Below, piece by piece: positions 1,116 to 48,261 of a stretch of 64,000 nt of DNA. Numbering within the stretch: position 1 is the first letter of the stretch; each line of letters opens with the position of its first letter. Source of the stretch: Rubrivivax sp. Lineage in GTDB: Bacteria; Pseudomonadota; Gammaproteobacteria; Burkholderiales; Burkholderiaceae_C. The stretch spans positions 62,001-126,000 of the forward strand of contig JADCGP010000012.1 in assembly GCA_020248915.1 (NCBI GenBank). Direction: 5' to 3'. The position numbers were made by a program, and so were the translations under genes. The notes below the pieces were generated by a model that made no database searches, had not been told where the DNA came from, and was given only the letters and a program-made list of their open reading frames with translations.

Positions 1116-1940
1116 ATGCGACCGCCGAACCCTCTCCCGCTGCGGATGCGGCTGCCCTGGCCGCTGCCCGCCGTGCTGTGCTGGGGGCTGGGCTGGGCCG
1201 TCTTCGGCGCGCTCGGCGCCGCCGGCACGGCGCCGCCGCTGCCCGCGCTGGCCGGCGCGGCGGCCGCGCTCGGGTCGGCGCTTGCGATCGAGGGCGGCTG
1301 GAGGCGCGTCATCGCAGCCGCCGGATTCCCGCTGTCGGCTTGGGCGCTCGGCGCGGCGGCGGCCCCGCCGCCCTGGGCCTGGGCCGCGGCGGCAGCGCTG
1401 CTGCTGGCGCTGTACCCGCTGCGCGCATGGCGTGATGCCCCGTTCTTCCCGACCCCCGCATCCGCTCTGGCCGGGCTCGATGACGTGGTCCTTCCGCCTC
1501 CGTCGAGCGTCCTCGACGCCGGCTGTGGCCTCGGCCACGGGCTTCGGGCGCTGGCGCGGCTGTGGCCGCAGGCGCGGCTCCACGGCGTGGAGTGGAGCCG
1601 GCCGCTGGCCTGGGTCGCGGCGCATCGGCTGCCGGCGGCGTCGATACGGCGCGGCGACATGTGGGCGTCCAGCTGGACCGGCCACGACCTGGTCTACCTG
1701 TTCCAGCGCCCCGAGACCATGGAGAGAGCATGGGCCAAGGCGGCGGAAGAGCTGGCGCCGGGCGCCTGGCTCGTGAGCCTGCAGTTCGAGGTGCCGGGTG
1801 TACGGCCGGTCGCCTGCCTGGGGCGGCCCGGCCTCCATAGGGTCTGGATCTACCGGATCGACGCCCGGGCCGCCGCGGCAGCGCAATCTTCCGCACGGCC
1901 CACGACGGGCGGCTCAACCGCCGGCCGACCGCGCCGATAA
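1116..1940 (+). CDS. Membrane-anchored class I SAM-dependent methyltransferase
   Basis: The 274-residue product has a hydrophobic N-terminal part (about residues 10-100) rich in Ala, Leu and Trp that could form three or four membrane segments. A soluble class I methyltransferase domain follows. SAM-binding motif I is visible as VLDAGCGLGHG near residue 131, and an acidic HGVEWS strand 2 end follows about 25 residues later. The substrate is unknown. It is the only gene between flhDC and motAB. It follows the flhDC terminator, so it must have its own promoter or rely on leakage. Its stop codon forms the last bases of the motA sigma-28-like promoter. A role in flagellar or surface modification is only a guess from position. 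Confidence 0.75.
   Translation: MRPPNPLPLRMRLPWPLPAVLCWGLGWAVFGALGAAGTAPPLPALAGAAAALGSALAIEGGWRRVIAAAGFPLSAWALGAAAAPPPWAWAAAAALLLALYPLRAWRDAPFFPTPASALAGLDDVVLPPPSSVLDAGCGLGHGLRALARLWPQARLHGVEWSRPLAWVAAHRLPAASIRRGDMWASSWTGHDLVYLFQRPETMERAWAKAAEELAPGAWLVSLQFEVPGVRPVACLGRPGLHRVWIYRIDARAAAAAQSSARPTTGGSTAGRPRR
1914..1940 (+). promoter_or_regulatory. Sigma-28 (FliA)-type promoter for motAB
   Basis: TCAACCGC (1914-1921), 11 bases, then GCCGATAA (1933-1940). The -10 element is identical to the enteric FliA consensus GCCGATAA, and the spacing is the consensus 11. The final TAA is also the stop codon of the methyltransferase gene. The leader to the motA ATG is 64 bases. The same layout recurs at four other places in this window. 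Confidence 0.8.
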
Positions 1941-2004
1941 CGGGTCAGCCGTGCGGCCCCGGGCCGGTGCGGTCCTACACCGCCCGCCCCCTGCCCGCTG
2001 TCAC

Positions 2005-2868
2005 ATGTTCATCATCGTCGGTTGGATCGTCGTCCTCGGCTGCGTGTTCGGGGTCTACATCGCGCACGGCGGCAGCATGGGGCCGATCGCGAAGGCCCTG
2101 CCGTGGGAGATGGCGACAATCGGCGGCGCGACGCTGGGCGCGTTCCTCGTCAACAACCAGATGCCGGTGATCAAGGCCACCCTGGCCGGCATCGGGGCCT
2201 GCTTCAAGGGCAGCAAGTACACCAAGGACCGCTACCTCGAACTCCTCGCCCTGCTGTTCGACATTCTGCAGAAGGCGCGCAAGGAAGGCCTGATGGCCAT
2301 CGAGAAGGACGTCGACGAGCCGGCGAACTCGCCGCTGTTCCGCAAGCACGCCACCGTGGGCCGCGACCACCACGTCATCGAGTTCATCACCGACTACCTG
2401 CGGATGATGGTCTCGGGCAACCTGAACGCGCACGAGATCGAATCGCTGATGGACAGCGAGATCGAGACCCACCACCAGGAGGCGCACGCGCCGGTGGCTG
2501 CGATCACGCGGGTCGCCGGGGCGCTGCCCGCCTTCGGCATCGTCGCGGCCGTGCTCGGCGTGGTCAAGACGATGGGTTCGGTCGGGCAGCCGCCCGCGGT
2601 GCTGGGCGCGATGATCGGCTCGGCGCTGGTCGGTACCTTCCTGGGGATCCTGCTCGCCTACGCGTTCGCCGAGCCGCTGGCCGGCCTGCTGGAGCAGAAG
2701 GTCGAGGAGAGCAGCAAGGAGCTGCAGTGCATCAAGACGACGCTGCTGGCCAGCATGCAGGGCTACGCGCCCCAGGTGGCCATCGAGTTCGGTCGCAAGG
2801 TGCTGACGTCGACGACGCGACCGACCTTCGCCGAGCTCGAGGCGCACGTCAAGCGCAAGAAGGCATGA
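2005..2868 (+). CDS. motA: Flagellar motor stator protein MotA
   Basis: MotA forms, with MotB, the proton-driven stator that turns the flagellar rotor. The 287-residue product starts at the ATG giving MFIIVGW. An upstream in-frame extension exists but lacks family similarity and overlaps the previous gene. Membrane segments appear at the N terminus, around residues 30-50 and in two C-terminal helices. The third helix has the conserved proline in ALPAFGIVAAVLG, and the fourth reads GTFLGILLAYAFAEPLA. The charged cytoplasmic loop lies between them. motB follows after 35 bases. Confidence 0.96.
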   Translation: MFIIVGWIVVLGCVFGVYIAHGGSMGPIAKALPWEMATIGGATLGAFLVNNQMPVIKATLAGIGACFKGSKYTKDRYLELLALLFDILQKARKEGLMAIEKDVDEPANSPLFRKHATVGRDHHVIEFITDYLRMMVSGNLNAHEIESLMDSEIETHHQEAHAPVAAITRVAGALPAFGIVAAVLGVVKTMGSVGQPPAVLGAMIGSALVGTFLGILLAYAFAEPLAGLLEQKVEESSKELQCIKTTLLASMQGYAPQVAIEFGRKVLTSTTRPTFAELEAHVKRKKA

Positions 2869-2903
2869 CCCGGCCGCGCAGCGGCTGAACGGAGGGGCCC
2901 CGC

Positions 2904-3884
2904 ATGGCAGGCGACGCGAAGAAGCTGCAGCCGATCATCGTCAAGAGGGTCCGCAAGGGCGGGCACGCCGCTCATGGCGGTGCATGGAAGATCGCCTATG
3001 CCGACTTCGTGACGGCGATGATGGCCTTCTTCCTGCTGATGTGGCTGATCGGCAGCACGACCGATGGTGACAAGAAGGGCATCGCCGACTACTTCGCCGC
3101 GCCGCTGAAGATTGCGCTGCTGTCCTCCGGGTCCGGCGCGGGGGACAGCTCGCACGTGCTCAAGGGCGGTGGTCAGGACCTGACCCGGAGCGCCGGCCAG
3201 GTCAGGAACGGCGACGTCGAGGCCCCGCGCGGCACGGCCAGCGTGCGGGCGCTCAAGGCCGAGCAGCTGAGGGCGGAGATCTCGCGCCTGGAGGATCTGA
3301 AGCGGAAGATCGAGCAGAAGATCGAGAGCAATCCGCGTCTGGCCGGCCTGCGCTCGCAGATCCTGCTAGACATGACCGCCGACGGACTGCGGATCCAGAT
3401 CGTGGATGCGGACGGGCGCCCGATGTTCGCCAGCGGCAGCGCGGACGTGCAGCCCTACATGCGCGAGCTGCTGCAGGCACTGGGCGGGCTTCTGGCCGCG
3501 GTTCCCAACCGGCTGACGCTGGAGGGGCACACCGACGCCGCCTCCTTCTCCGCCGGGGAGCGGGGATACAGCAACTGGGAGCTGTCGGCCGACCGCGCCA
3601 ACGCGTCGCGGCGCGAGATGCTCCTCGGGGCCTTGCCGGAAGGGCAGGTGCTGCGCGTGCAGGGGCTGGCCTCGAGCGTTTTGCAGGTCCCGGCGGACCC
3701 GCGCTCGTCGGCCAACCGGCGCATCAGCATCATCGTCATGAACCGTGACGCTGAGGAGCGCGCTCTGCGCGGCAGCCTGATGCCGCTGGAGGCCGCGACA
3801 CCGGAGGTGGCGCCGGCGCCGGCGCCGCAACCGGCCGCGCCGCCGGCGGCCGCGCCCTCAAGTCGGCCCGAGCCCGCCCGATAA
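2904..3884 (+). CDS. motB: Flagellar motor stator protein MotB
   Basis: MotB anchors the stator to peptidoglycan and carries the proton-binding residue. The 326-residue product has a basic N terminus and one membrane helix starting at the [10 protein letters not shown] motif, with the essential aspartate at position 34. A plug and linker region follows. The C-terminal OmpA-like domain contains LEGHTDA and RRISI, which bind peptidoglycan. The tail is rich in Ala and Pro. The GGAGGGG ribosome site lies just before the ATG. The 3' end of the gene overlaps the cheY promoter, and its TAA is part of the -10 box. Confidence 0.96.
3858..3884 (+). promoter_or_regulatory. Sigma-28 (FliA)-type promoter for cheYZ
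   Basis: TCAAGTCG (3858-3865), 11 bases, then CCCGATAA (3877-3884), 34 bases before the cheY ATG. It sits wholly inside the end of motB, and the motB stop codon TAA forms the end of the -10 element. It has the same 8-11-8 layout as the motA site, so cheYZ can be transcribed both by read-through from motAB and from its own FliA promoter. Confidence 0.77.
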
Positions 3885-3918
3885 CAGCAGCAGTCCGCTT
3901 GCCCCGAGGAAGCCCGAG

Positions 3919-4317
3919 ATGATCCCGCCCAGCGACCTGAAGTTCCTCATCGTCGACGATTTCTCCACCATGCGCCGGATCATCCGCGGCCTGCTCAAGG
4001 AGATGGGCTGCAACAACGCCGAGGAAGCCGAGGACGGTGCGGTGGCGCTGGGGATGCTGCGTGCGGGCAAGTTCGACTTCGTGGTGAGCGACATCAACAT
4101 GCCCAACATGAATGGCTTCGAGCTGCTGCAGGCCGTCAAGGCCGACGACACGCTGAAGCATCTGCCGGTGCTGATGGTGACCGCCGAGGCGCGCAAGGAG
4201 GACATCGTGCTGGCCGCGCAGAGCGGCGCTGCGGGCTACATCGTCAAGCCCTTCACGAAGGCCACCCTCGAGGAGAAGGTGCTCAAGATCCTGCACAAGC
4301 TGGTCGTCACCGCCTGA
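3919..4317 (+). CDS. cheY: Chemotaxis response regulator CheY
   Basis: CheY is a single-domain receiver that, when phosphorylated by CheA, binds the flagellar switch and changes rotation. The 132-residue product has the acidic pair in IVDD (residues 11-14), the phosphoacceptor Asp58 in VVSDINMP, the switch Thr in MVTAEA and the conserved Lys in YIVKPFT. It pairs with cheZ 27 bases downstream. No cheA is present in the window, so its kinase is encoded elsewhere. Confidence 0.97.
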
Positions 4318-4344
4318 GCGGCAGCAAAGCCCCCGGAGCCCCGC

Positions 4345-5034
4345 ATGAAGCTCGATACCGCCACCACCTCCCAGGCCGCGCACCCCGCCGCGATGGCTGC
4401 CGCAGTCCACGCCGGTGCGCACGCTGTCGCCCCGGCTGCCGCCCTGCAGGTCTCGCCCGAGGTGTACCAGCAGATCGGATCGATCACCCGGCTGGTGCAC
4501 GACACCCTGTCACAGCTGGGCGTGATGCCCAAGCTGCAGATCGCCACCGATGGCCTGCCCGACGCCCGCAGCCGGCTGAGCTACATCGCGACGAAGACCG
4601 CCGACGCCGCCAACAAGGTTCTGAACTCGGTCGATCAGGCCAAGGCCGAGCACACGCGCATCGCGGAGGCGGCCCGCGACATCGGCGACTGCATCGTCTC
4701 GGACCCGGTGAAGGCGGTTGCCTCGGGCGCAGTGCTGAACTTCGTCGAGGACGTCGAGCAGCGCACCGCGCGCATCGACGGTCACCTCACCGACATCATG
4801 ATGGCCCAGGACTTCCACGACCTCACCGGCCAGGTCGTGGCACGGGTGATCGGCCTGGCCGCAGACCTCGAGGACAGCCTCGTCAAGCTGCTGGTCTCGA
4901 TCGTTCCCGAGGACGAGCGTGTCAAGGTCGACAGCAACGCCCTGCACGGGCCGGTCGTGAACCCCGCGGGTCGCACGGACGTCGTGTCCAACCAGGGCGA
5001 GGTCGACGACCTGCTGGAGAGCCTGGGCTTCTGA
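4345..5034 (+). CDS. cheZ: CheY-P phosphatase CheZ
   Basis: CheZ removes the phosphate from CheY-P to end the signal. The 229-residue product has a low-complexity Ala/His-rich N-terminal extension (about residues 10-34), then the long helical hairpin. The conserved stretch QDFHDLTGQ (residues 155-163) carries the catalytic Asp/Gln region. The C terminus EVDDLLESLGF is the usual tethered CheY-binding peptide. The gene lies 27 bases after cheY and is followed by a 144-base gap before flhB. Confidence 0.95.
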   Translation: MKLDTATTSQAAHPAAMAAAVHAGAHAVAPAAALQVSPEVYQQIGSITRLVHDTLSQLGVMPKLQIATDGLPDARSRLSYIATKTADAANKVLNSVDQAKAEHTRIAEAARDIGDCIVSDPVKAVASGAVLNFVEDVEQRTARIDGHLTDIMMAQDFHDLTGQVVARVIGLAADLEDSLVKLLVSIVPEDERVKVDSNALHGPVVNPAGRTDVVSNQGEVDDLLESLGF

Positions 5035-5178
5035 CGCGGCCGCGCCGGGCACCGCCCGCGCAACTTGTCACAACCGTAACGCCGGGTCGATGACGACGGC
5101 GTTTCCGGCTCTTATCGGGCTCAAGCCCACCGCCTGCCCGGGCACCATCGCGGCGCTCCCCAGAGAGCCTGCCGCGAC

Positions 5179-11028: not shown

Positions 11029-11742
11029 ATGTACACCGCGAAAGGACAACTCGACACCGGTGCGCTGCTCAAGCAGTACAGCCCGCTGGTGCGGCGGCTG
11101 GCGCATCAGATGATCGCCAAGCTGCCGGCCAACGTCGAGCTCGACGACCTGATCCAGGTCGGCATGATCGGGCTGACCGACGCCCTGTCGCGCTTCGACG
11201 CGGCGCAGGGCGTGCAGTTCGAGACCTTCGCGACCCAGCGCATCCGCGGCGCGATGCTCGACGAGCTGCGCGGCAACGACTGGATGAGCCGGGGCGACCG
11301 CCGCCACCAGCGCAGCATCGAGGCCGCCGTGCACCGGCTGGAGCAACGCCTGGGGCGCGCGCCGAGCGAGGGCGAGATCGCCCGCGAGATGGAGATGTCG
11401 CTGCAGGACTACCAGGAGCTGCTGGCCAAGGTGCGCGGCACCCAGCTGCTGTACCTGGAGGACATCGGCGGCGACGACGGCGACGACGACTACCTCGACC
11501 GGCACATCGCCGACGAGGATGCCAACCCGGTTGCGCGCCTGCAGGACCGGCGCATGCGCGAGGCGCTGGTCGAGGCGATCAAGCAGCTGCCGGAGCGCGA
11601 GCAGTACGTGATGAGCATGTACTACGAGCACGACATGAACCTGAAGGAGATCGCCGCCGTCCTCGGCGTGACCGAGAGCCGGGTCTGCCAGCTTCACAGC
11701 CAGTCGATCGCCCGGCTGCGCTCGCGGCTGCGCGACTGGTAG
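11029..11742 (+). CDS. fliA: Flagellar sigma factor FliA (sigma-28)
   Basis: FliA directs RNA polymerase to late flagellar promoters once FlgM is exported. The 237-residue product has region 2 (LDDLIQVGMIGLTDALSRFD, with FATQRIRGAMLDELR), region 3, and region 4 with LKEIAAVLGVTESRVCQLH as the helix-turn-helix. A GAGGGA ribosome site precedes the ATG. It closes the flhBAF-flhG run. Its anti-sigma factor flgM lies less than 1 kb downstream on the other strand, and candidate FliA promoters are scattered through the window. Confidence 0.97.
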   Translation: MYTAKGQLDTGALLKQYSPLVRRLAHQMIAKLPANVELDDLIQVGMIGLTDALSRFDAAQGVQFETFATQRIRGAMLDELRGNDWMSRGDRRHQRSIEAAVHRLEQRLGRAPSEGEIAREMEMSLQDYQELLAKVRGTQLLYLEDIGGDDGDDDYLDRHIADEDANPVARLQDRRMREALVEAIKQLPEREQYVMSMYYEHDMNLKEIAAVLGVTESRVCQLHSQSIARLRSRLRDW

Positions 11743-12445: not shown

Positions 12446-12730
12446 TCAGCTCAGCTTGCGGCCGAGCAGCTCCTCGGCATTGACGATCAGCTTGTCGGCG
12501 ATCGCCTCCGGGTTGACCTTGTAGTTGCCGTCGCGGATCGCGGTGGCGATCCGGTCGACCTTGGCGGCGTCGAAACTGCCGTCCCCGGCTCCCGTGACCA
12601 CCAGCGACGCCGCGGAGGACAGTTCGACCTTGGCGCTCGGCTCGGTGGACGCGACCGGCGCGGCATCAGCCCGACGCTCGCTGACGGGCGCCTGGACAAC
12701 GGGCTTGGCATCGATAGAACCGATCTTCAT
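12446..12730 (-). CDS. flgM: Anti-sigma-28 factor FlgM
   Basis: FlgM binds FliA and is exported through the completed hook, releasing FliA. The 94-residue product begins MKIGSID and has a disordered Ala/Pro-rich N-terminal half. The conserved C-terminal FliA-binding half shows DAAKVDRIATAIRDGNYKVN and ends LIVNAEELLG. A sigma-28-type promoter lies about 55 bases upstream, giving the expected autoregulatory loop. flgN follows closely on the same strand. Confidence 0.95.
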   Translation of the reverse strand: MKIGSIDAKPVVQAPVSERRADAAPVASTEPSAKVELSSAASLVVTGAGDGSFDAAKVDRIATAIRDGNYKVNPEAIADKLIVNAEELLGRKLS

Positions 12731-12785: not shown

Positions 12786-12813
12786 CTATCGGGTCGCGCA
12801 GCAGTGGACTTTA
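12786..12813 (-). promoter_or_regulatory. Sigma-28 (FliA)-type promoter for flgMN
   Basis: On the minus strand, TAAAGTCC (12813-12806), 12 bases, then CCCGATAG (12793-12786). This is close to the enteric consensus TAAAGTTT-N11-GCCGATAA. The leader to the flgM ATG is about 55 bases. It differs from the other sites in the window by having TAAAG rather than TCAAG and one extra spacer base. It lies in a short AT-richer stretch between flgA and flgM. Confidence 0.78.
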
Positions 12814-18351: not shown

Positions 18352-18353
18352 CG

Positions 18354-25403: not shown

Positions 25404-25430
25404 TCAAGTACCATGCCCCGCGGCCGAAAC
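25404..25430 (+). promoter_or_regulatory. Sigma-28-like promoter before the Hpt/response-regulator genes
   Basis: TCAAGTAC (25404-25411), 11 bases, then GCCGAAAC (25423-25430), 75 bases before the Hpt ATG. It sits in the 223-base gap after the YuxH-type gene, where no other gene is evident. Layout and -35 match the motA, cheY and 48-kb sites. The -10 deviates at two positions from GCCGATAA. Confidence 0.6.
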
Positions 25431-25505
25431 CGGAGCGTAGTCTCCGCGGCGGGAGGCCGGTGGTCCGGCCACGCCGCCGCCCCGGCCTGCAACTGGCACC
25501 ACCCG

Positions 25506-25880
25506 ATGAGTCCGAACGCGAGTCCCGCCCCCGTGACGCTCGACGCGGCGGCCCTGTCCCGGCTGCGCGAGCTCGATCCCGAAGGCCGCAACGGCGTCAT
25601 GCGGCGTGTGCTTGCCACCTTCGAGACCAGCGTCGCGCGCACGCTCGACCAGCTCGAGGCCGATGCCCAGGAGGTCGACGCCGCCGGTCTGGCGTCGATC
25701 GCGCACATGCTCAAGAGCAGCTCCGCCAGCGTTGGTGCGCTGCGCCTGTCTGCCGCCTGCGAGCAGATCGAGCGCGCCGCCCGCGACGTGGCGGGCCCGG
25801 CGGCCCGCGAGGATGTCGAGCGGCTGCTCGCCGAAGGCAGGGCGGCCCTGGTTGCCGTGCGGGCGATGGTCCACCCCTAG
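25506..25880 (+). CDS. Stand-alone Hpt phosphotransfer protein
   Basis: The 124-residue product is a single HPt domain. The phospho-accepting motif reads AHMLKSSSASVGA, with His67 as the acceptor (family form HxLKGSSxxxGA; here Gly is Ser). It would pass a phosphate between a hybrid histidine kinase and a receiver. The obvious receiver is the REC-PAS-GGDEF-EAL protein encoded 12 bases downstream. No histidine kinase is encoded in the window, so the donor is elsewhere. The start is the ATG giving MSPNASP; the ribosome site is weak. Confidence 0.85.
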   Translation: MSPNASPAPVTLDAAALSRLRELDPEGRNGVMRRVLATFETSVARTLDQLEADAQEVDAAGLASIAHMLKSSSASVGALRLSAACEQIERAARDVAGPAAREDVERLLAEGRAALVAVRAMVHP

Positions 25881-25892: not shown

Positions 25893-28151
25893 ATGAGCCC
25901 CGTCCCCGCCGACGCCTTCGACGCCCTGCCGGCGCAGCCGCAGGTGCTGCTCGTCGACGACGACGAGGTGAACCTGCTGCTGACCGGCGTCGCGCTGCGT
26001 GAGCGGGGGTTCCGACCGGTGGAGGCGGCGAGCGGAGAGCAGGCCCTGGAACTGCTGCGCCAGCACGCCCCGGACATCGTCGTGCTCGACGCGATGATGC
26101 CGGGCCTCGACGGGTTCGCGACCTGCCGCGCGATCCGGACCCAGCCCGGCTTCGAGAACGTGCCGGTGCTGATGCTCACCGGGCTGGACGACGACGACAG
26201 CATCGCGCGTGCCTACCAGGCCGGCGCGACCGACTTCTTCGTCAAGGCCACGCAGTGGAGCCTGCTCGCCGGCCGGCTGCGCTACCTGCTTCGCGCCTCG
26301 CGCACGAGGCTCGAGCTCGAGCGCAGCAAGAGCAAGCTGGCGCGCGCGCAGGACCTCGCCCGGATGGGCAGCTTCGACTGGCGCCGCGCCGACGGCGCGC
26401 GGCGCGGCGGCCTGCTGCTGTCGGCCGAGGCCCTGCGGGTGTTCGGCCACGGGCCGCAGGAGCGGCCGGGCCTGCGAGGCTTGCTGCGGATGGTGCCGCG
26501 CGACGAGCGCCGTGCGCTGGTACGAATGCTGCACGACGCGATGCGGACCAGCTCCGTGCTGGCCACCGACACGCGCGTCGTCCTGCTCGACGGGCGCCAG
26601 CGGATCATCCACGCCGAGGCAGAGCCCGAGTTCAACGAGCACGGGCAGGGCATCGGCTACACGGGCATCGTCCAGGACGTCACCGACCGACGGCAGGCCG
26701 AGGACCGCATCCGGCACCTGGCCAACTTCGACGCGCTGACCGGCCTGCCCAACCGCCGGCAGCTGATCTGGCGCGCGGAGCGGGCCCTGGAGCACGCGCG
26801 TCGGATGGAGCACCAGTTCGCGCTGCTGCTGATCGACCTGGACCGCTTCAAGGTCATCAACGACACGCTTGGCCACGTCGCCGGCGACGAGCTGCTGGTC
26901 GAGGTCGGGCGGCGGCTGCGCGCCTGCGTGCGCCACAGCGACCAGGTGCTCGAGGGGGCCGTGGACGGTGCCGGGCCGCGCTCGCACCGCGCACTGGAGG
27001 CGGTGGGGCGGCTCGGCGGCGACGAGTTCGTCGCGCTGCTGCCCGAAGTGGGCGGCGACGCCGACGCCGACCGCGTGGCGCAGCGCGTGCTGGAAACGCT
27101 GCGCGAACCGGTCTTCGTCGGCGGCCAGGAGTGCTTCGTCACCGCCAGCGTCGGCATCTCCCTGTACCCGCGCGACGGCGCCAGCGTCGTCGAGCTGCTG
27201 CGAAACTCCGACGTGGCGATGTACTCCGTGAAGGCCCAGGGCAAGAACGCGGCGGCGGTCTACAGCCCGATGCTGGCCGGACAGGGCCGCGCCAAGCTCG
27301 AGCTCGAGACAGCGCTGCACAAGGCGATCGAGCGCGAGGAACTGGTGCTGCACTTCCAGCCCAAGATCGATCTGCGCTCGGCCCGGATGGTCGGCGCCGA
27401 GGCGCTGATGCGCTGGAATCGCGCTGGCCGACTGGTGCCGCCTGGGGACTTCATCCCGCTGGCCGAGGACACCGGCCTGATCGTGCCGCTGTCGGAGTGG
27501 GCGCTCCGAGAGGCGGCGCGCCAGGCGCGGGCCTGGCGCGAGGCGTTCGGATTCGACGACTCGATCGCGGTCAACATGCCCAGCCGCCTGTTCGAGCGCA
27601 GCGACCTGGTCGAGCACATCCACCACTGCGTGGCGTCGGTCAACCTGCCGCACCGCGCGATCCAGCTCGAGATCACCGAAGACAACCTGATGAAGGAGCT
27701 GCGCAACGTGATCCCGTCGCTGCAGCGGCTCAACGAGCTCGGCGTCGAGATCGCGATCGACGACTTCGGCACCGGCTACTCGAGCCTGGCCTACCTGACC
27801 ACGCTGCCGATCAGCGAAGTGAAGATCGACCGCAGCTTCGTGCGCGACCTGGGCGTGACCCCGCAGAGCTCGGCGGTCGTCACCGCGATCATCGCGCTGG
27901 CGCGCTCCCTGGGCCTGCGTGTCGTCGCCGAGGGCGTCGAGACGCTGCGGCAGATGGAAGTGCTGCACCGCCTGGGCTGCAGCGTGATGCAGGGTTTCCT
28001 GTTCAGTCGCGCCGTGCCGGCCGACGAGCTGCAGCGCTGGCTCGAGCGGGCCGAGCTGCCGCGCCGGGCGTCGTGGGCGGACATCGGGCTCGACGGCGGC
28101 ACCACCGATCACGGCAGCGTGTCGGCGGCGGCGGCGCGCCGCCTGCGTTGA
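25893..28151 (+). CDS. Response regulator REC-PAS-GGDEF-EAL (c-di-GMP turnover)
   Basis: This 752-residue protein has four parts. The receiver (about 15-135) has VDDDE and the phosphoacceptor Asp66 in VVLDAMMPG. A PAS-like sensor spans about 155-275. The GGDEF domain has RLGGDEFVALL near residue 375. The EAL domain (from about 490) has GAEALMRWN near 502 and the loop DDFGTGYSSL. Both output motifs look intact, so it could make and break c-di-GMP, with the EAL often dominant in such proteins. The Hpt gene 12 bases upstream probably phosphorylates it. A second GGDEF gene follows 8 bases downstream. Confidence 0.92.
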   Translation: MSPVPADAFDALPAQPQVLLVDDDEVNLLLTGVALRERGFRPVEAASGEQALELLRQHAPDIVVLDAMMPGLDGFATCRAIRTQPGFENVPVLMLTGLDDDDSIARAYQAGATDFFVKATQWSLLAGRLRYLLRASRTRLELERSKSKLARAQDLARMGSFDWRRADGARRGGLLLSAEALRVFGHGPQERPGLRGLLRMVPRDERRALVRMLHDAMRTSSVLATDTRVVLLDGRQRIIHAEAEPEFNEHGQGIGYTGIVQDVTDRRQAEDRIRHLANFDALTGLPNRRQLIWRAERALEHARRMEHQFALLLIDLDRFKVINDTLGHVAGDELLVEVGRRLRACVRHSDQVLEGAVDGAGPRSHRALEAVGRLGGDEFVALLPEVGGDADADRVAQRVLETLREPVFVGGQECFVTASVGISLYPRDGASVVELLRNSDVAMYSVKAQGKNAAAVYSPMLAGQGRAKLELETALHKAIEREELVLHFQPKIDLRSARMVGAEALMRWNRAGRLVPPGDFIPLAEDTGLIVPLSEWALREAARQARAWREAFGFDDSIAVNMPSRLFERSDLVEHIHHCVASVNLPHRAIQLEITEDNLMKELRNVIPSLQRLNELGVEIAIDDFGTGYSSLAYLTTLPISEVKIDRSFVRDLGVTPQSSAVVTAIIALARSLGLRVVAEGVETLRQMEVLHRLGCSVMQGFLFSRAVPADELQRWLERAELPRRASWADIGLDGGTTDHGSVSAAAARRLR

Positions 28152-28159: not shown

Positions 28160-29848
28160 ATGGAAGCAACCCCGACGGGGCGGCCGCCGACACCGGCCGA
28201 ACTGGCCAAGGCAACCCTGAGGCGTCTGGCCGAGCGGCGTCTGGAGCCTACTCCCGAGAACTACGCGCGCGCCTGGGTCGGGGAGGGCGGCTGGGAGCGC
28301 GGGTCGGCAGCACCGCCTCCGCCGGCCGAGTCCCGGCTGCAGGCGCAGAGCCAGGCCTGGGTCGCGCTGGTCGAGCGGCTCGCCCGCAATCTGGACCGGG
28401 GCGGGCGGCAGTGGACCGCCGCCCGGCGCAAGGAGAGCCTCCAGCGCGTGCTCGCCGGCAGCCGCAGCGACGCCGAGCGGCTTCTGCAGCGTCTGCAGGC
28501 GCTGGTCCAGGCGTGGGAGACCGAACGCACCGACACCGGGACCGAGTCCGAAGGGGCGATCGCCCACGTGGCGCCGCCCGCCCCATCGGTACCGGTCCCG
28601 GCGGCTTCTCCGGCGCCCTCGGCGCCCGAGGATGTCCTGGGGCCTCCCGCGCGCTGGCAGCGCGCCGCTGCTGCGCTGGCGCAGGCGGCCGGCGCCGCGC
28701 TGCCCGCCGAGGACGAGCGTGCGGCAGTACTTGCACAGGGGCTTTCGTTGCTGGCCGAGCGCCTCGCGCAGCAGGGTGCCACCGAGGTCGTCGTGCGCGA
28801 GCTCGAGCGGCTGTGCGCCGAGGCTGCCCGCTGGCTGGGCCACCGGCACATCGTGGTGTCCGAACTGGGCAGCCTGTGCCGCGAGCTCGGCGCGGGTCTG
28901 GAGGAACTGGCGGAGGAAGACAGCTGGACGCGGGGCCAGTGCGCCAGCGTGCGGGCGCGGCTCGATGGTGGCCTGAGCCTGCGCGGGCTGCGGGCAGCCG
29001 GGCAGATGCTTGCCGAGACGCGGGCCGAGCAAGTCCGCGTGCGCGCCGAGCGCAACGCCGCCCGCGATGCCCTGAAGGAGCTGCTGGCGCGCATGCTCGG
29101 CGAGGTCGGCGAGCTCGGAGCGCATGCCGGCGTGTTCGAGCTCGCGGTCGAGCGCCACGCCGAGGCCGTGGCGCGCGCCGACAACGTCGAGAGCCTGGCC
29201 GGCGTCGTGCAGGCGATGCTGGAGGACAGCCGGCAGGTGCGCCGCGCGGTCGGCGGGGCGCAGGAGCGGCTGCAGGAGCAGCAACTGCGTGCACACGAGC
29301 TCGAGGAGCGGGTGCAGAGCCTGGAGGCCCGGCTGCGCCAGGTCTCGGAGCAAGCCGCCACCGATGCGCTGACCCAGGTGGCCAACCGGCGCGGGCTGGA
29401 ACAGGCCTTCGAGGCCGAGTCGGCGCGCTGCCTGCGCAGCGTGGGCGCTGCGGCGTCGCTGGCTGTCGGCCTGATGGATCTCGACAACTTCAAGAAGCTG
29501 AACGACCGCCTGGGTCACTCCGCCGGCGACCGCGCGCTGCAGGCGCTGGCCGCGGCCGTTCGCGAGCGGCTGCGCCCGGTGGATCACATCGCGCGCTTCG
29601 GCGGCGAGGAGTTCGTGCTGCTGCTGCCCGGCACCGAGCTGGACACCGCACAGCAGGCGCTGACCCGACTGCAGCGCAGCCTGACCGCGGCGCTGTTCCT
29701 CCACGAGGGCGAGGAGGTGTTCGTCACGTTCTCCGCCGGCGTGACGGTGTGGCGCGACGGCGAGGCGCTCGAGGCGACGCTGGCCCGTGCCGACGAGGCA
29801 CTCTACGAGGCCAAGCGCAACGGCAAGAACCGGACCTGCACCGCCTGA
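28160..29848 (+). CDS. GGDEF diguanylate cyclase with long helical N-terminal region
   Basis: The 562-residue product ends in a GGDEF domain whose active site reads FGGEEFVLLLPG near residue 480, a form compatible with diguanylate cyclase activity. It is preceded by DALTQVANRRGLEQAF. The first 390 residues are mostly charged helices with coiled-coil character (a stretch of Arg/Glu/Gln-rich heptads just before the GGDEF). They have no membrane segment or sensor I recognise. The N terminus (TPAELAKATLRRLAERRLEPTPENYARAW) resembles the start of other soluble cyclases. GAGGAAGGG precedes the ATG, 8 bases after the response regulator stop. Confidence 0.88.
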   Translation: MEATPTGRPPTPAELAKATLRRLAERRLEPTPENYARAWVGEGGWERGSAAPPPPAESRLQAQSQAWVALVERLARNLDRGGRQWTAARRKESLQRVLAGSRSDAERLLQRLQALVQAWETERTDTGTESEGAIAHVAPPAPSVPVPAASPAPSAPEDVLGPPARWQRAAAALAQAAGAALPAEDERAAVLAQGLSLLAERLAQQGATEVVVRELERLCAEAARWLGHRHIVVSELGSLCRELGAGLEELAEEDSWTRGQCASVRARLDGGLSLRGLRAAGQMLAETRAEQVRVRAERNAARDALKELLARMLGEVGELGAHAGVFELAVERHAEAVARADNVESLAGVVQAMLEDSRQVRRAVGGAQERLQEQQLRAHELEERVQSLEARLRQVSEQAATDALTQVANRRGLEQAFEAESARCLRSVGAAASLAVGLMDLDNFKKLNDRLGHSAGDRALQALAAAVRERLRPVDHIARFGGEEFVLLLPGTELDTAQQALTRLQRSLTAALFLHEGEEVFVTFSAGVTVWRDGEALEATLARADEALYEAKRNGKNRTCTA

Positions 29849-29931: not shown

Positions 29932-29958
29932 TCAAGGTCGGTCCTGCACGGCCGAAAA
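29932..29958 (+). promoter_or_regulatory. Sigma-28-like promoter before the unknown 239-residue gene
   Basis: TCAAGGTC (29932-29939), 11 bases, then GCCGAAAA (29951-29958). The gene ATG is at 30006, leaving a leader of about 40 bases. The site lies in the 157-base gap after the diguanylate cyclase gene and has the same 8-11-8 layout as the motA and cheY sites. Confidence 0.62.
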
Positions 29959-30005
29959 GCTGAAGGAGCGCGACGGGTTTGCCGGCGCGCGCCGAGTCCC
30001 ACCCC

Positions 30006-30725
30006 ATGAGCAACCTCAAGGACCTGCTGCAGCCGCTGCGCACCGCGGCCGCTGCCTTCTTCCGATACGAGGTGGCGTTGCGGCGCGAAGGCAGTGCCGT
30101 CCACGTCGGCCTCGAGGAGCGCCCGCGGCCCGAGGCGGCCCGGCGCAGCCGGGTCGACGTCGCGGCCCAGCACGAACAGGAGGCGCTGGCCCTGATCCGT
30201 GCCGAGCTGTCGGCGCTCCTCAACGAGCAGCCGGCGACGCGGGAGACGATGCGCCACCTGGTATTCGTCGAGCAGGCGCTCGCACGCAAGGGCCTGCGCG
30301 CACTGCACAAGATCCCGGTGGACTTGCTGCAGCGCGCGCTGGAGCAGCTTGAGGGTTTGGTCACCAACTGGTCGCCGGTCGGCCTGGCGAACCTGCGGTC
30401 GAAGATGGCGGTGGCCATCATCGACCGCCGCCACGACAACCCCGGCGCCGACGCCGGTACGTTCCGGACCGCCTCCGTGCTGGACCCCCGCCAAGCCCTG
30501 GCCGCTGCGCCGTCGATGCCGGTGGACCGCTCGGAGGAAGAGGCGTTGGCGGCCGCTTATGCGGCCCTGGGCGCCGTTGCCGGCATGCCGGCGGGTGGCC
30601 GCGAGGACGGTGGCCTCGAGTTCCTTCCGGAGCTGCCGGTCGCCGCGCGGCGGCCCGACGCCGGGACGAACCCGGCAACGCGGCAACTCGCCGCCGAGCT
30701 CGACGTCAGGCTGCTGCAGCCCTGA
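30006..30725 (+). CDS. Unknown protein, possible FliA-controlled motility gene
   Basis: I do not recognise this 239-residue protein. It has no signal peptide or membrane helix. The N-terminal half is helical and charged (MSNLKDLLQPLRTAAAAFFRYEVAL, then an Arg/Glu-rich helix). The middle has ALHKIPVDLLQRALEQLEGLV and WSPVGLANLRSKMAVAI. The C-terminal third is low-complexity Ala/Pro/Gly and probably disordered. The ATG is preferred over a TTG at 29979 because the latter would leave almost no leader after the predicted transcription start. It closes the c-di-GMP cluster and has its own sigma-28-like promoter, which suggests a motility-linked role by association only. Confidence 0.7.
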   Translation: MSNLKDLLQPLRTAAAAFFRYEVALRREGSAVHVGLEERPRPEAARRSRVDVAAQHEQEALALIRAELSALLNEQPATRETMRHLVFVEQALARKGLRALHKIPVDLLQRALEQLEGLVTNWSPVGLANLRSKMAVAIIDRRHDNPGADAGTFRTASVLDPRQALAAAPSMPVDRSEEEALAAAYAALGAVAGMPAGGREDGGLEFLPELPVAARRPDAGTNPATRQLAAELDVRLLQP

Positions 30726-40561: not shown

Positions 40562-40572
40562 AATCCGCTTCC

Positions 40573-40800: not shown

Positions 40801-40818
40801 CCGCCGGGCGCACACGCG

Positions 40819-41685: not shown

Positions 41686-41768
41686 CGGGGGCTCAAGGTG
41701 GGAGGGATGTCGGTCGATTCTGGCATGTCGTTTGCTGTCCCCACGATGACAAATCACCGGCCGCCACG

Positions 41769-42749
41769 ATGGACGTACTGATCCTCGAGCCCCTGCACGC
41801 GGACGTGCTGCAGTGGCTGTCGGCGCGCCACGCCGTGCACTATGCCCCGGAGCTGGCGGGCGACGTACACGGTTTCCGCGAGCGGCTGGCCAGCGCCCGC
41901 TCGGTGATCATCCAGCCATCGGTCGCGCTGGACGGCCCCACGCTGCGCCGGGCGCCGCGGCTGCGCATCGTCGGGCGCCTGTCGGTCGGCGCCGAGAACA
42001 TCGACCTGGACGCCTGCGCCCGCGCCGGCATCGAGGTCGTGCGCCCAGCCAGCGCCAGCGCCGCCGCCGAGGCCGAGTTCGTCGTCGGCGCGCTGCTGCA
42101 GATGCTGCGCCGCGTGCCTGTCCTCAACGACGAGGGGTTGCTGGTGGGCCGCGAGCTCGGCGGCACCGTCGTCGGCATCGTCGGCGTGACGCCGGCGGTC
42201 AAGCCGCTGGTCCAGCTGCTGGCGGCCTTCGGCGCCCGTGCCATCGGCTACGACCCGGGCGTGCATGCCTCCGACGCCACCTGGAGCCGCGCCGGCGTCG
42301 AACCGGTCGGCCTGCGCGACCTCGTCGCCGCGAGCGACGCGGTCGTCGTGCTGCTCGGTTTCTTCCCGCGCTACGTCGGGCTGTTCGGCGAGCGGCTGCT
42401 GGCGGAGGCCAAGCCCGACCAGGTGCTGGTCAGCCTCTCGCACTCGAACCTGTTCGACGAGGCGGCGCTCGCGCGTGCTCTGACCGACGGGCCGCTTGCC
42501 GCGGCCTGGTTCGACAGCATGGAGCCCGGCGCGCTCGACCCGGGGCGACCGCTGCGCCACGTCGACACGCTGCAGGTCACGCCGCGCGTGGCCGGCACCA
42601 CGCTGCAGTCACGCGTTCGCAGCGCCTGGGCCGTCGCGCGGCGGATCGACGAGCTGCTGATCGGGGTCTCGGCGTCAGGGCGCGGCGAGTTCAGGCCGAC
42701 GGCTCCAGACGAGCTCTCTGATCTCGGAGACGCTCCAAAGCCTGCCTGA
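41769..42749 (+). CDS. D-2-hydroxyacid dehydrogenase-like protein with altered active site
   Basis: The 326-residue product has the fold of D-isomer 2-hydroxyacid dehydrogenases, with [23 protein letters not shown] (residues ~68-90) and a Rossmann domain. Key positions have changed. The NAD loop reads GIVGVTPAV instead of GxGxxG. The substrate-binding Arg is His225 ([13 protein letters not shown] where NTARGGLVDEAAL is usual). The catalytic His is Arg273 (TPRVAGT for TPHxAGT). Only Glu252 remains. It may bind a ligand without catalysis. Its 3' end overlaps valS on the opposite strand by 59 bases. Confidence 0.8.
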
Positions 42750-45573
42750 AGTCGGCCACCCGCGCCCGTTCCTGCGCCACGACGGCCGCCGGCGCGCGCT
42801 CGACGAAGCTGGCGTTGCCCAGCTTGCCCTCGGCGCGGGCCACCTCCGCGGACAGGCGCGCGATCTCCTTGTCCAGCCGCGCGCCCTCGGCTGCGACGTC
42901 GACCTGCACCTGCAGTGCAATGCGAAGCGCACCGACCATCGCCACCGGCGCACGCCGGGTCGCGGCGGCGAACTCCTCCTCGCTGCCGGCGACGCGCACC
43001 TCGTCGTGGCGCGCCAGCGCCCGGACCAGCGGTGCGGCGGCGGCCACGAAGCCCGCATCGCCCAGAGTGACCAGCGGCACGCGCTCGCCCGGCGACAGGC
43101 CCATCTCGCTGCGCAGCCGGCGGCTCTCGACCACCAGAGCCTTGAGCTGGCCCACCCAGGCGTCCGCCACCGGGTCCACCTTCTCGAGCTGGGCCTGGGG
43201 ATAGGGCGCGTCGACGATCGTGCGCGCGTCGCCCTCGCCGCGCCGGCCGGCCACGACGGCCACCGTCTGCCACAGCTCCGCGGTGACGAACGGCGCCACC
43301 GGGTGCAGCAGCCGCAGCACCGTCTCCAGCGTGCGGATCAGCGTGCGCCGCGTCGCCCGCTGGCGGGGCTCGGTGCCGGTGGCCAGCTGCGCCTTGGCGA
43401 TCTCGAGGTACCAGTCGCAGTACTCCTCCCAGACGAAGGCATAGATCGCGTTGGCGACGTTGTCGAGCCGGTACTCGGAGAACGCCGTGTGCACGGCGGC
43501 CTCGACGCGCTGCAGCTCGCCGGTGATCCAGCGGTCGGCCATCGAGAAGTCGAGGTGGCCGTGGAACGGCCCGGCCTCGCGCAGCACGCTGCCGTCGTCG
43601 CCGCGGACGGCCGGCGCGCACTCGGCCTTGGTGTGCTCGGCGAGCCCGCAGTCCCGGCCCTGGCAGTTCATCAGCACGAACTTGGAGGCGTTCCAGAGCT
43701 TGTTGCAGAAGTTGCGGTAGCCCTCGCAGCGCTTGCTGTCGAAGTTCACGTTGCGGCCGAGCGTGGCGTAGCTCGCCATCGTGAAGCGCAGCGCGTCGGC
43801 GCCGAAGGCGGGAATGCCCTGCGGGAACTCCTTCTCAGTCTCCTTGCGCACGCGCGGTGCGGTCTCGGGGCGCCGCAGGCCGGTCGTGCGCTTGGCCAGC
43901 AGCGGCTCGAGCGCGATGCCGTCGATCAGGTCGACCGGGTCGAGCACGTTGCCCTCGCTCTTGCTCATCTTGTGGCCCTGCGCGTCGCGCACCAGGCCGT
44001 GGATGTAGACGTCGCGGAAGGGCACCTGGCCGGTGAAGTGCGTCGTCATCATGATCATCCGGGCGACCCAGAAGAAGATGATGTCGAAGCCGGTGACGAG
44101 CACGCTGCTGGGCAGGAACAGCTCGAGTTCCCGGGTCCGGCCCGGCCAGCCGAGCGAGGAAAAGGGCACCAGAGCCGACGAATACCAGGTGTCGAGCACG
44201 TCCTCGTCGCGGGAGAGCGGCCCGCGGTAGCCGGCCGCGGTGGCGCGCGCGCGCGCCTCGTCCTCGTCGCGGGCGACGAAGATCTCGCCGCCGGTGCCGT
44301 GCCACGCCGGGATCTGGTGGCCCCACCACAGCTGGCGGCTGATGCACCAGTCCTGGATGTTGTTCATCCAGTGGTTGTAGGTGTTGACCCACTGCTCGGG
44401 CACGAAGCGCACCTGGCCCGACGACACGGCGTCGATCGCCTTGGCGGCGATGCTGCGGCCGTCGGCGCCGGGCTTCGTGGTGGCCACGAACCACTGGTGG
44501 GTCAGCATCGGCTCGACGACCTGGCCGGTGCGCTCGCAGCGTGGCACGACGAGGCGGTGCTTGCGGGTCTCGGCCAGCAGGCCGAGCGCCTCGAGATCGG
44601 CCACGACCCGCCTGCGGGCCTCGAAGCGGTCGAGGCCGCGGTAGGCGGCGGGCGCGTTGTCGTTGACCCGGGCCTCGAGCGTCAGCACGCCGATCGTCGG
44701 CAGGCCGTGGCGCTGGCCTACCGCGTGGTCGTTCGCGTCGTGCGCCGGCGTGACCTTGACGACGCCGGTGCCGAACTCGCGGTCGACGTAGGCGTCGGCG
44801 ATGACGGGGATCTCGCGCTCGCACAGCGGCAGCCTGACGCGCCGGCCGACGAAGGCGGCGTAGCGCTCGTCCTCCGGGTGCACCATCACCGCGGTGTCGC
44901 CGAGCATCGTCTCGGGGCGCGTCGTGGCCACGACGAGCGAGCCGCTGCCGTCGGCCAGCGGGTAGCGGATGTGCCAGAGGAAGCCGTCCTCCTCCTCGCT
45001 CGTGACCTCGAGGTCGGACACCGCGGTCTTGAGCTGCGGGTCCCAGTTGACCAGCCGTTCGCCGCGGTAGATGAGCCCCTCGTCGTACAGGCGCACGAAG
45101 GTCTCGGTGACGACGCGCGACAGCCGCTCGTCCATCGTGAAGTACTCGCGGCTCCAGTCGACGCTGTCGCCCAGGCGCCGCATCTGGTTGGTGATCGTGG
45201 CGCCCGACGTCGCCTTCCAGTCCCAGACCTTGGCGACGAAGCTGCTGCGCCCGAGGTCGTGGCGCGTGAGGCCCGCTTCCTGCAGCTGGCGCTCGACGAC
45301 GATCTGCGTGGCGATGCCCGCGTGGTCGGTGCCGGGAACCCAGAGCGTGTTGAAGCCCCGCATCCGGTGCCAGCGGGTCAGCGCATCCATGATCGTCTGG
45401 TTGAACGCGTGGCCCATGTGCAGCGTGCCGGTGACGTTGGGCGGCGGCAGCTGGATGCAGAACGAGGGCCGGCCGGCGTCGAGCGTCGGCGCGTGGACTC
45501 CGGGCGCCTGCCAGGCGGCCGTCCAGCGGGCCTCGATCGCGGCGGGTTCGAACGACTTGGCGAGCTCGGTCAT
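42691..45573 (-). CDS. valS: Valyl-tRNA synthetase
   Basis: ValS charges tRNA-Val. The 960-residue length is normal. The HIGH motif reads HMGH at residues 52-55, after [14 protein letters not shown] is present as [10 protein letters not shown] near residue 535. The editing domain and [16 protein letters not shown] region are present. The C-terminal coiled coil ([27 protein letters not shown] region) is complete. It is divergent from the S41 peptidase gene, and its last 59 bases overlap the 3' end of the dehydrogenase-like gene. Confidence 0.97.
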
Positions 45574-45708
45574 GGCAGGCGCTGATGCGGCGTGACACCC
45601 GGGTCGGTGTCAACGGAAGTGAAGCCCAGAGGGTTTGAATTGTAGGTTCGCACCCTGGGCGAGCCGCCCGCACAGACGCGGACGGCAGGCCCGCACGGAG
45701 GATTCCCG

Positions 45709-47106
45709 ATGCCCGATGCCTCTACCCGCGACCCGGCCGCCTGGATCCGCCGCGTCGTCGTCGCGCTCTCGGCGATGCTGCTCGTCGCCTGCGGCGGCGG
45801 CGGCGGCGGGGTCGACTCCGCCCGGACCTGCGACCTGGGCGCCCGCAAGGCCTGGCTGCGCGACTACATGGACGACTGGTACTTCTGGTACCGGATCTCG
45901 CCGCGGCCCAATCCCGAGCCGTTCGAGACGGTGGACGCGTTCTTCGACGCCCTCCTGTACGGCGGAACCGACCCGGCGTTCCCGCGCGACCGCTGGAGCG
46001 GTTTCCAGAGCACCGAGAGCTTCAACCGTTTCTTTGGCGACGGCCAGGCGCTCGGCTACGGCCTGTCGGTGAACGGGCTGGAGGCGGTCGAGGTGCCGGG
46101 CACACCGCTGTACGTGCGCTACGTCGAGCCGCTGTCGGACGCCGCGCGGCAGGGGGTGCGGCGCGGCGACGAGGTGCGCTCGATCGACGGCGTGCCCGCC
46201 GCCGACCTGATCCGCCAGGTCGCGGACAACCGCTTCACTGTGCTGTCGCCCACGGCCGCCGGCACCACGGCGACCCTCGTTCTGCGCAGCGGTGGCGTCG
46301 ACCGTTCAGTCGTCGTGCGGGCCGACGTGTTCGCCCTGACGCCGGTGGCCGGCAGCGCGGTCTACACCTCCCAGGGCGGGCGCAGGATCGGCTACCTCGC
46401 CGTCAAGGACATGATCAGCCAGGCCGAGCGCGGCCTCGATGTCGCCTTCCAGGGCTTCCGCCAGCAGGGCGTGCAGGACCTCGTGCTCGACCTGCGCTAC
46501 AACGGTGGCGGTCTGGTGTCGATGGCGACCACCGTGGCTTCCTACATCGCCGGCCGTCGCGGCAGCGGACAGGTCTTTTCCGCGCTTCTGTACAACGACA
46601 AGCAGGCCGAGGCCAACAGCGCCAGCTTCAGGCTCACGAACCCGGCCAACTCGCTGGACATCACGCGCGTCTTCGTGCTCACCGGCCCGCGCACCTGCTC
46701 GGCCAGCGAGCAGGTGATCAACGGCCTGCGTGGCGTGCTCGGCCCGGGCGGGGCCGCTGGCGTGCAGGTCGTCACGATCGGCGACACCACCTGCGGCAAG
46801 CCGGTGGGCTTCCTGCCGCAGCCCGACGGCTGCGGCACGACCTACAGCGTGGTCAATTTCGAGAGCGTCAATGCGCGCAACGAGGGGCGCTACTGGGACG
46901 GTTTCGCCCCGACCTGCCCGGTGTCCGAGGACTGGACGCTGCCCCAAGGCGCGGGCAACGACCCGTTGGTGGCGACGGCGGCCTACTACGCCGACACCGG
47001 CAGCTGCGCGCCCGTCGCGACCGGGACCATGCGGCCGCTCGGGGTGCGTCCGGGCCGCGCGCGGGACCTGCTGCTCGACGAGCGCACCGACATGATCGGG
47101 CGCTGA
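45709..47106 (+). CDS. S41-family (C-terminal processing type) peptidase, lipoprotein
   Basis: The 465-residue product has a lipoprotein signal ending LLVACGG (lipid-bearing Cys28) followed by a Gly run. A PDZ-like region spans about residues 110-200 (VRRGDEVRSIDGVPA). The S41 core has LVLDLRYNGGGLV, with the catalytic Ser in RTCSASEQ near residue 330 and Lys in CGKPVGF near 363. It is likely an envelope protease facing the periplasm. It is divergent from valS (135-base gap) and convergent with guaC. The substrate is unknown. Confidence 0.87.
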   Translation: MPDASTRDPAAWIRRVVVALSAMLLVACGGGGGGVDSARTCDLGARKAWLRDYMDDWYFWYRISPRPNPEPFETVDAFFDALLYGGTDPAFPRDRWSGFQSTESFNRFFGDGQALGYGLSVNGLEAVEVPGTPLYVRYVEPLSDAARQGVRRGDEVRSIDGVPAADLIRQVADNRFTVLSPTAAGTTATLVLRSGGVDRSVVVRADVFALTPVAGSAVYTSQGGRRIGYLAVKDMISQAERGLDVAFQGFRQQGVQDLVLDLRYNGGGLVSMATTVASYIAGRRGSGQVFSALLYNDKQAEANSASFRLTNPANSLDITRVFVLTGPRTCSASEQVINGLRGVLGPGGAAGVQVVTIGDTTCGKPVGFLPQPDGCGTTYSVVNFESVNARNEGRYWDGFAPTCPVSEDWTLPQGAGNDPLVATAAYYADTGSCAPVATGTMRPLGVRPGRARDLLLDERTDMIGR

Positions 47107-47157
47107 CCGCTGCGCTGGTTCACGAGCTCGCGGCAGCGGGTTCGCGGCACCGGGTGC

Positions 47158-48135
47158 CTACAGGAGCAGGTGCTCGCCGGCGTTCTCTCCGCCGAGGATG
47201 ACGTAGTTGACCTTCTTCAGGTCGGCCAGCGCGCGGCCGCCGGCATAGCTGATGCTGCTCTGCAGGTCTTCGCGCATCTCGCGCAAAGTGTCGGCCAGGC
47301 TGCCCTTGATGGGCTCGAGGATGCGCTTGCCCTCGACGTGCTTGTACTCGCCCTTGTTGAAGTCGCTGGCCGAGCCGTAGTACTCCTTGTAGAGCTTCCC
47401 GTCGACCTCGACCGTCTGGCCCGGGCTCTCGTGGTGGCCGGCGAACAGCGAGCCGATCATCACCATGGCCGCGCCGAAGCGCACGCTCTTGGCGATGTCG
47501 CCGTGATGCCGGATCCCGCCGTCGGCGATGATCGGCTTGGTGGCCACGCGGGCACACCACTTCAGGGCGGACAGCTGCCAGCCGCCGGTGCCGAAGCCGG
47601 TCTTGAGCTTCGTGATGCAGACCTTGCCCGGGCCGACGCCGACCTTGGTCGCGTCGGCACCCCAGTTCTCGAGGTCGATGACCGCCTCGGGGGTGGCCAC
47701 GTTGCCTGCTATGACGAACGCACCCGGCAGGCGCGCCTTGATGTGCTCGATCGTGCGGCGCACGCTGTCGGCGTGGCCATGCGCGATGTCGATCGTGATG
47801 TAGTCCGCGCCGACGCCCTCGGCGGCCAGCCGGTCGACCACCAGGAAGTCCTGCGGCTTGACTCCAGAGCTGATGGACACGAACAGCCCGTGCTCCCGCA
47901 TGCGCCGGGCGAAGGCCACGTTGTCGAGGTCGAAGCGGTGCATCACGTAGAAGTGGCCGCTGCGCGCCAGCACCTGCGCGATCGGCTCGTCGATCACCGT
48001 CCTCATGTTGCTGGGCACCACCGGCAGCGCGAAGCGGCGGCCGCCGAACTCCACCGACGGGTCGCACTGCGAACGGCTGTCGACGCGGCACTTGCGCGGC
48101 AGCAACAGGATGTTGTCGTAGTCGAATATCTCCAC
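47158..48135 (-). CDS. guaC: GMP reductase (GuaC, Bacillus-type)
   Basis: GMP reductase converts GMP to IMP. The 325-residue product starts at a GTG giving [13 protein letters not shown], and most of its length resembles the Bacillus form. It has [36 protein letters not shown] with the catalytic Cys, [15 protein letters not shown] and MIGSLFAGH. No CBS domains are present, which separates it from IMP dehydrogenase. A longer frame reaches 48216, but the extra 27 residues look non-homologous. It diverges from the GGDEF-EAL gene. Confidence 0.92.
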
Positions 48136-48234
48136 CGGGGGCTCCGGCGTGTCGGCGGTGCGGCGCCTGCCCACGCAAAGGGAAGAAGACGGGCGCCACG
48201 GGGCGCAGCCGTGCAATTCTAGGCGGCCGCCCCA

Positions 48235-48261
48235 TCAAGCCGTGCCGGCGCGGGCCGATAA
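48235..48261 (+). promoter_or_regulatory. Sigma-28 (FliA)-type promoter for the GGDEF-EAL gene
   Basis: TCAAGCCG (48235-48242), 11 bases, then GCCGATAA (48254-48261). The -10 is identical to the FliA consensus and to the motA site, the -35 matches the local TCAAG form, and the spacing is exactly 11. The ATG of the c-di-GMP gene is only 17 bases further on, so the transcript would have a very short leader or be nearly leaderless. Confidence 0.8.

Follow-up and report, generated by a model that had tools for sequence, protein, structure and literature searches.

FliA-type promoters ahead of motor, chemotaxis and c-di-GMP genes in a Rubrivivax genome

Whether the flagellar sigma factor FliA (sigma-28) also governs genes of cyclic di-GMP (c-di-GMP) signalling is the question raised by five short sites in a 64,000-nucleotide stretch of a Rubrivivax sp. 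genome (contig JADCGP010000012.1, positions 62,001 to 126,000; hereafter the window). The original prediction held that these sites share one spacing and near-identical boxes, and that a FliA regulon extends from them into second-messenger signalling. The pattern TCAAS-N14-SCCGANA matched the window exactly five times (1914, 3858, 25404, 29932 and 48235), always on the forward strand, whereas 100 dinucleotide shuffles of the window gave a mean of 0.05 matches and a maximum of 1, bearing out the shared layout. The spacing of the Escherichia coli type (TCAAG-N14-GCCGATA) was kept in all five sites; the −35 box was TCAAG in four and TCAAC in one, and the −10 box was SCCGANA in every case, this being the pattern used for their selection. 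The exact FliA −10 box, GCCGATAA, was present in the two sites at 1914 and 48235, as had been predicted. A weight matrix trained on 16 genome sites scored the five at 21.5–26.7 and the next-best window match at 13.1, a gap that is partly circular because the five were in the training set. Together with the genome-wide results below, this makes it very probable that FliA RNA polymerase recognises all five as class III flagellar promoters, and that the regulon reaches c-di-GMP genes.

All five sites lay just upstream of a gene start, with 17 to 76 bases between the end of the 26-base site and the presumed start codon. Tallies of such distances are biased by how the starts were picked and carry no weight as evidence here. 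The putative motA promoter (TCAAC-N14-GCCGATAAC, 1914..1941, + strand) ended 65 bases ahead of the ATG of motA (2005..2868, +; NCBIfam TIGR03818, 1.2e-115, and PRK09041, 1.3e-113), which is followed by motB (2904-3884). The putative cheY promoter (TCAAG-N14-CCCGATAAC, 3858..3885, +) ended 35 bases ahead of cheY (3919..4317, +; named from the sequence, with no family scan), after which comes a cheZ-like gene (4345-5034; PRK11166, 5.6e-53, under the curated cut-off). Both of these sites share bases with the 3′ end of the reading frame before them, motB in the case of cheY. The third candidate (TCAAG-N14-GCCGAAACC, 25404..25431, +) ended 76 bases ahead of a gene for a histidine phosphotransfer (Hpt) protein (25506..25880, +, start read from the sequence; PF01627, 2.3e-12), which presumably forms an operon with genes for a receiver-PAS-GGDEF-EAL protein (25893..28151, +; Pfam) and a GGDEF protein with a GGEEF motif (28160..29848, +; PF00990, 1.6e-41). 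The fourth (TCAAG-N14-GCCGAAAAG, 29932..29959, +) ended 48 bases ahead of a gene for a protein of an uncharacterised family (30006..30725, +). The fifth (TCAAG-N14-GCCGATAAG, 48235..48262, +), with 12/12 consensus bases, ended 17 bases ahead of a gene for a PAS-GGDEF-EAL protein (48278..50620, +; PF00563, 1.9e-72, and PF00990, 1.8e-40).

A scan of the whole genome (4.35 Mb in 54 contigs) had been set beforehand as the refuting test. It returned 22 matches to TCAAS-N14-SCCGANA and only 1 to the reversed pattern, indicating that the layout is not common at random. When TCAAG and CCGAWA were allowed a free gap of 8–22 bases, 14 of the 25 genome matches fell at a single spacing out of 15 possible (p ~8e-11, on the assumption of equally likely spacings). 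Nine of the 22 matches had a clear target in motility, chemotaxis or c-di-GMP signalling, namely motA, cheY, Hpt, cheD, a chemoreceptor gene, a CheY-TPR gene, two GGDEF-EAL genes and a PAS-GGDEF gene. Another five preceded genes of no known family: three belonging to the uncharacterised family described below, a gene for a membrane/coiled-coil protein, and a small-lipoprotein gene that is followed by a sensor-GGDEF gene. Matches with one mismatch preceded fliS, fliD and a carbonic anhydrase gene, among others, and several more were inside genes or had no evident motility target.

The genes for FliA and its anti-sigma factor are in the same window as the five sites. fliA (11029..11742, +) matched NCBIfam PRK06986 with 302 bits (cut-off 201) and TIGR02479 with 280.6 bits (cut-off 189.6), and flgM (12446..12730, −) matched TIGR03824 (3e-13) and PF04316 (8.3e-11). 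A sixth site in the enteric TAAAG form had been predicted at flgM. The TAAAG box is indeed there, but the spacing of this candidate promoter (TAAAG-N15-CCCGATA, 12787..12813, −) is one base longer than that of the five window sites. TAAAS was rejected as a general −35 form in this genome: at the canonical spacing (TAAAS-N15-CCGNWA) there were 0 exact matches genome-wide, and 3 for the reversed control. Matches ahead of fliC and chemoreceptor genes had also been proposed as a check; a chemoreceptor gene had one, whereas fliC was preceded only by a weaker, degenerate variant (TAAAG-N14-GTCGAAA), ~220 bases from its start.

To see these sites against the presence of FliA, we used a sample of 150 genomes of the family, in which a FliA match above the family cut-off was found in 111 and not in 39. 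The 111 FliA-bearing genomes contained 375 sites of the form TCAAG-N14-GCCGATA, against 54 for the reversed control, whereas such sites were rare in the 39 without a FliA match (23, against 9). This contrast bears on the idea that the sites serve a different sigma factor, of sigma-70 or extracytoplasmic function type, which happens to act on motility genes. The genome does have four matches to the sigma model, of which FliA is one; but the sites share their boxes and spacing with FliA promoters of E. coli and their abundance tracks the FliA gene, so that we give this idea hardly any credence. Conservation within the genus was assessed in genome G094, in which four of the five window sites (those of motA, cheY, the Hpt operon and the GGDEF-EAL gene) recurred with 11/12 consensus bases each. 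The cheY counterpart, TCAAG-N14-TCCGATA, reaches that count while lying outside TCAAS-N14-SCCGANA.

Several observations weigh against reading these sites as FliA promoters. The 39 genomes without a FliA match were still above control (23 sites versus 9, p 0.03); with seven genomes judged incomplete set aside, the remaining 32 had 12 sites versus 7. Among 12 of those 23 sites that were inspected with their downstream gene, one was ahead of motA. In G094, TCAAS-N14-SCCGANA gave 13 matches and the control 5, and the site of the uncharacterised gene did not recur. Looser patterns were less selective in the Rubrivivax genome itself, the free-gap pattern giving 10 matches in the reversed control against the 25 real ones, and TCAAG-N14-GCCGATA with at most one mismatch giving 28 against 8. 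As for the 22 matches, three had weak or unrelated targets (a GspH-type pilin gene, a gene for a DUF4384 protein and a third; loci L012, L016 and L017), and five were in-gene, antisense or target-less (L002, L015, L018, L019 and L021). The in-gene matches and the sizeable reversed controls are what chance matching in GC-rich sequence would produce. For the set, chance is refuted by the shuffles, the reversed controls, the spacing peak and the recurrence in G094, and as a general account it has almost no probability left; single sites could be chance.

The evidence for the c-di-GMP genes was assessed separately. GGDEF was matched 24 times in the genome, in 23 proteins, and 6 of these 23 were encoded among the first three genes downstream of a TCAAS-N14-SCCGANA site: two in the Hpt operon (C4:88721 and C4:91354), the gene at 48278 (C4:110791), C51:35972, C9:79640, and C8:35190, which is the second gene after its site, behind a lipoprotein gene. 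With 4,100 genes and two genes per site assumed, 0.25 were expected (p ~1e-7), a value that is approximate because one of the six is third in its operon. When only first genes were counted, 3 of 22 were GGDEF genes (p ~2e-4). The site-linked targets carry both cyclase and phosphodiesterase domains, and in the three window proteins we read the GGDEF/GGEEF and EAL motifs as intact. The proposed extension of the FliA regulon into second-messenger signalling is thus supported by the genome scan, by the nine clear targets, by the tracking of FliA and by the enrichment of GGDEF genes among the targets.

Targets in relatives were examined in eight other FliA-bearing genomes, picked mostly for many matches. 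These listed 67 consensus sites, of which 66 were fetched and 65 had a downstream protein. Pfam assigned 9 of the 65 to GGDEF, 6 to chemoreceptors, 4 to MotA, 4 to FliD, 2 to CheR, 2 to HD_5 and 2 to carbonic anhydrase; because of how the genomes were chosen, these counts represent targets and not frequencies, and C-terminal domains are undercounted because the proteins were truncated to about 500 residues. PilZ was represented among the downstream proteins too, by at least one. HD_5 proteins, which we take to be of the HD-GYP type, and PilZ proteins followed FliA-type sites at L138, L140, L147, L178 and L199 in the relatives.

It could be argued that the flagellar and chemotaxis sites are real FliA promoters and that those of the c-di-GMP genes and the uncharacterised gene are bystanders with weak or no FliA binding. 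PMC4183435 lists a number of E. coli sites that FliA binds without measurable effect, expression changing little in a fliA mutant; a FliA-type site is therefore not proof of regulation, which also counts against our own reading. The bystander account gains further from the absence of the uncharacterised gene's site in G094. It also gains from the homologues of the 48278 protein in other genera: of 28 (L106-L133), none had at least 11/12 consensus bases across the scanned stretch, and the two nearest after the G094 homologue, L106 and L107, had 8/12. However, the GGDEF-EAL and Hpt-operon sites do recur in G094, more than a quarter of the genome's GGDEF proteins lie downstream of sites, and the GGDEF share among the 65 proteins compares with none among the 12 sites inspected in FliA-less genomes, although that second sample is small. 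On this balance we consider the bystander account improbable. Individual c-di-GMP targets nevertheless seem to change from genus to genus.

If FliA does read these promoters, the known enteric scheme suggests how they would act. FlhDC would switch on the early flagellar genes and fliA, and FlgM would restrain FliA until the hook is complete. FliA would then transcribe the motAB stator genes, cheYZ, the flagellar cap and chaperone genes and a receptor gene, and in addition the Hpt/GGDEF-EAL operon, more GGDEF-EAL genes and some genes without an assigned role. A finished hook would in this way be tied to production of the enzymes of c-di-GMP synthesis and breakdown. Going by the precedents of E. 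coli yhjH and Pseudomonas bifA, we expect c-di-GMP to be kept low while the cell swims, although cyclase as well as phosphodiesterase domains occur among the targets.

The protein encoded at 30006 had no Pfam or NCBIfam match, its matches to PDB sequences were at E 0.049 or worse, and no PDB fold was found at E ≤ 0.001 (best 0.32). Because these family, sequence and fold searches gave no match, we propose no function. The protein has a helical core (residues 49-144) and two paralogues outside the window (L001 and L014/L058; leave-one-out profile E 1.3e-21 and 3e-29), both downstream of 12/12 sites; all three members have sites of 11 or 12 of the 12 bases. A conserved promoter in relatives was expected since all three members in the genome have one, and this was rejected: none of 23 relative loci reached 11/12, and the best three (L037, L047 and L049) had 10/12.

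The carbonic anhydrase gene raised a question of its own. FliA-type sites were present ahead of alpha-carbonic anhydrase genes (PF00194) in four genomes of three genera (the Rubrivivax genome, G094, G096 and G053), the Rubrivivax site (L032, C45:98278) having one mismatch. With these four proteins as queries for a protein search of named genomes, the best 80 of 318 loci were taken (L223-L302), and 77 were scored, the other three having too little upstream sequence. The genera included Rhizobacter, Piscinibacter, Aquabacterium, Ideonella, Zoogloea and Cognatazoarcus, and many loci were labelled only Burkholderiales or Betaproteobacteria. At least 11/12 consensus bases were found in 66 of these 77 betaproteobacterial loci, 49 with an N14 spacer (30 of them perfect) and 17 others with N15; other spacers reached that level in 0–4 of the 77, mononucleotide shuffles in 0 of 385, and the reversed N14 pattern had at least 10 bases in 1 of 77. 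L223 and L270 appear to be seed loci, and without them the count was 64 of 75. Eleven loci had no site. The loci are related and therefore do not represent independent events. The spacer bases vary between loci while the boxes stay fixed; since the boxes were selected by score, only the variation of the spacer is informative. Flagellar neighbours were considered as a cause of these sites and rejected: tblastn of 22 window proteins, mostly flagellar, against the 80 loci with flanks of up to 3 kb found none beside the genes, returning receiver/GGDEF matches and one weak sigma match only.

These results strongly indicate, from upstream sequence, that FliA controls the alpha-carbonic anhydrase gene. 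The enzyme, judged by eye, is secreted or membrane-anchored. In the Rubrivivax protein an arginine replaces the first histidine of the HxH motif, whereas a pattern match found both histidines in 80 of 80 relatives; the change may impair the Rubrivivax enzyme, or may be an error of base calling. More tentatively, and with rather less than even confidence, we suggest that the gene is a long-conserved member of the FliA regulon in Burkholderiales, perhaps also in other Betaproteobacteria, made only after hook completion, and that its product, acting beyond the inner membrane, might adjust the supply of protons or bicarbonate close to the working stators or in the service of CO2/pH taxis; this role is speculation. 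No report linking carbonic anhydrase to FliA, the flagellar regulon or the motor was found in titles and abstract openings of the open-licence literature, so that the target is apparently new. Other reports mention carbonic anhydrase in different settings. In Bordetella a carbonic anhydrase gene changed by 4.05 and fliA by −16.05 (PMC1965479), opposite directions that speak against the link there, if the gene is related. Elsewhere carbonic anhydrase is one among many changed genes (PMC4855414), a can insertion from a motility screen is attributed to a growth defect (PMC3948606), E. coli can is an RpoH target (PMC5493296), a carbonic anhydrase is under ArsR (PMC2883586), and two papers mention the enzyme for other reasons (PMC10418997 and PMC6092412). 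If confirmed, the conserved target would bring an unexpected enzyme into the late flagellar programme, and a connection between the motor and proton chemistry could then be tested directly.

Some further genes were seen repeatedly after FliA-type sites. A receiver-TPR protein was encoded there in four genomes of three genera (L022 scanned; L146, L184 and L196 by eye), and a small protein judged by eye to have membrane and coiled-coil parts followed consensus sites in both genomes of the genus (L009 and L134). A small lipoprotein of the GCDxLGxES type was found in three genomes of two genera (L010, L136 and L164). Type IV pilin-like or pseudopilin genes were found in three genomes (L012, scanned as GspH; L155 and L170 by eye).

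The analysis outlines a FliA regulon, open to testing, in a GC-rich betaproteobacterium, and the coupling between flagellar completion and c-di-GMP known from E. coli and Pseudomonas would be marked here too, with genes that partly differ between genera. According to PMC4183435, E. coli FliA promoters have a −35 box TAAAG or TCAAG, 14 bases and a −10 box GCCGATA, the flgKL promoter having the same boxes and spacing as the window sites; the targets include motAB, che, fliC, fliD, flgM and the c-di-GMP genes yhjH and ycgR. As in the Rubrivivax genome, the E. coli motA site is inside the upstream gene, there flhC. Unlike in E. coli, TCAAG prevails as the −35 box in the Rubrivivax genome and TAAAG is rare, and its c-di-GMP targets, six proteins by our count, come from GGDEF-EAL genes and the Hpt operon. 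For Pseudomonas, it is reported that deletion of fliA in P. aeruginosa PAO1 raised c-di-GMP and lowered bifA, an EAL phosphodiesterase gene (PMC4866697), and that bifA of P. putida is partly controlled by FliA through a putative sigma-28 promoter (PMC5300878). In Pseudomonas bifA is thus far the gene confirmed in these papers, although several c-di-GMP genes changed in PAO1. Since yhjH, ycgR and bifA were already known, the extension of the FliA regulon to c-di-GMP is not new in kind. The closest parallel to the Hpt operon is the HptB/HsbD system of P. aeruginosa, in which Hpt and diguanylate cyclase genes likewise stand with flagellar genes, beside flgM, and are tied to FliA/FlgM (PMC5085249). 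The Rubrivivax arrangement differs in that the Hpt gene is followed by genes for a receiver-PAS-GGDEF-EAL protein and a GGDEF protein, with a FliA-type promoter ahead of it.

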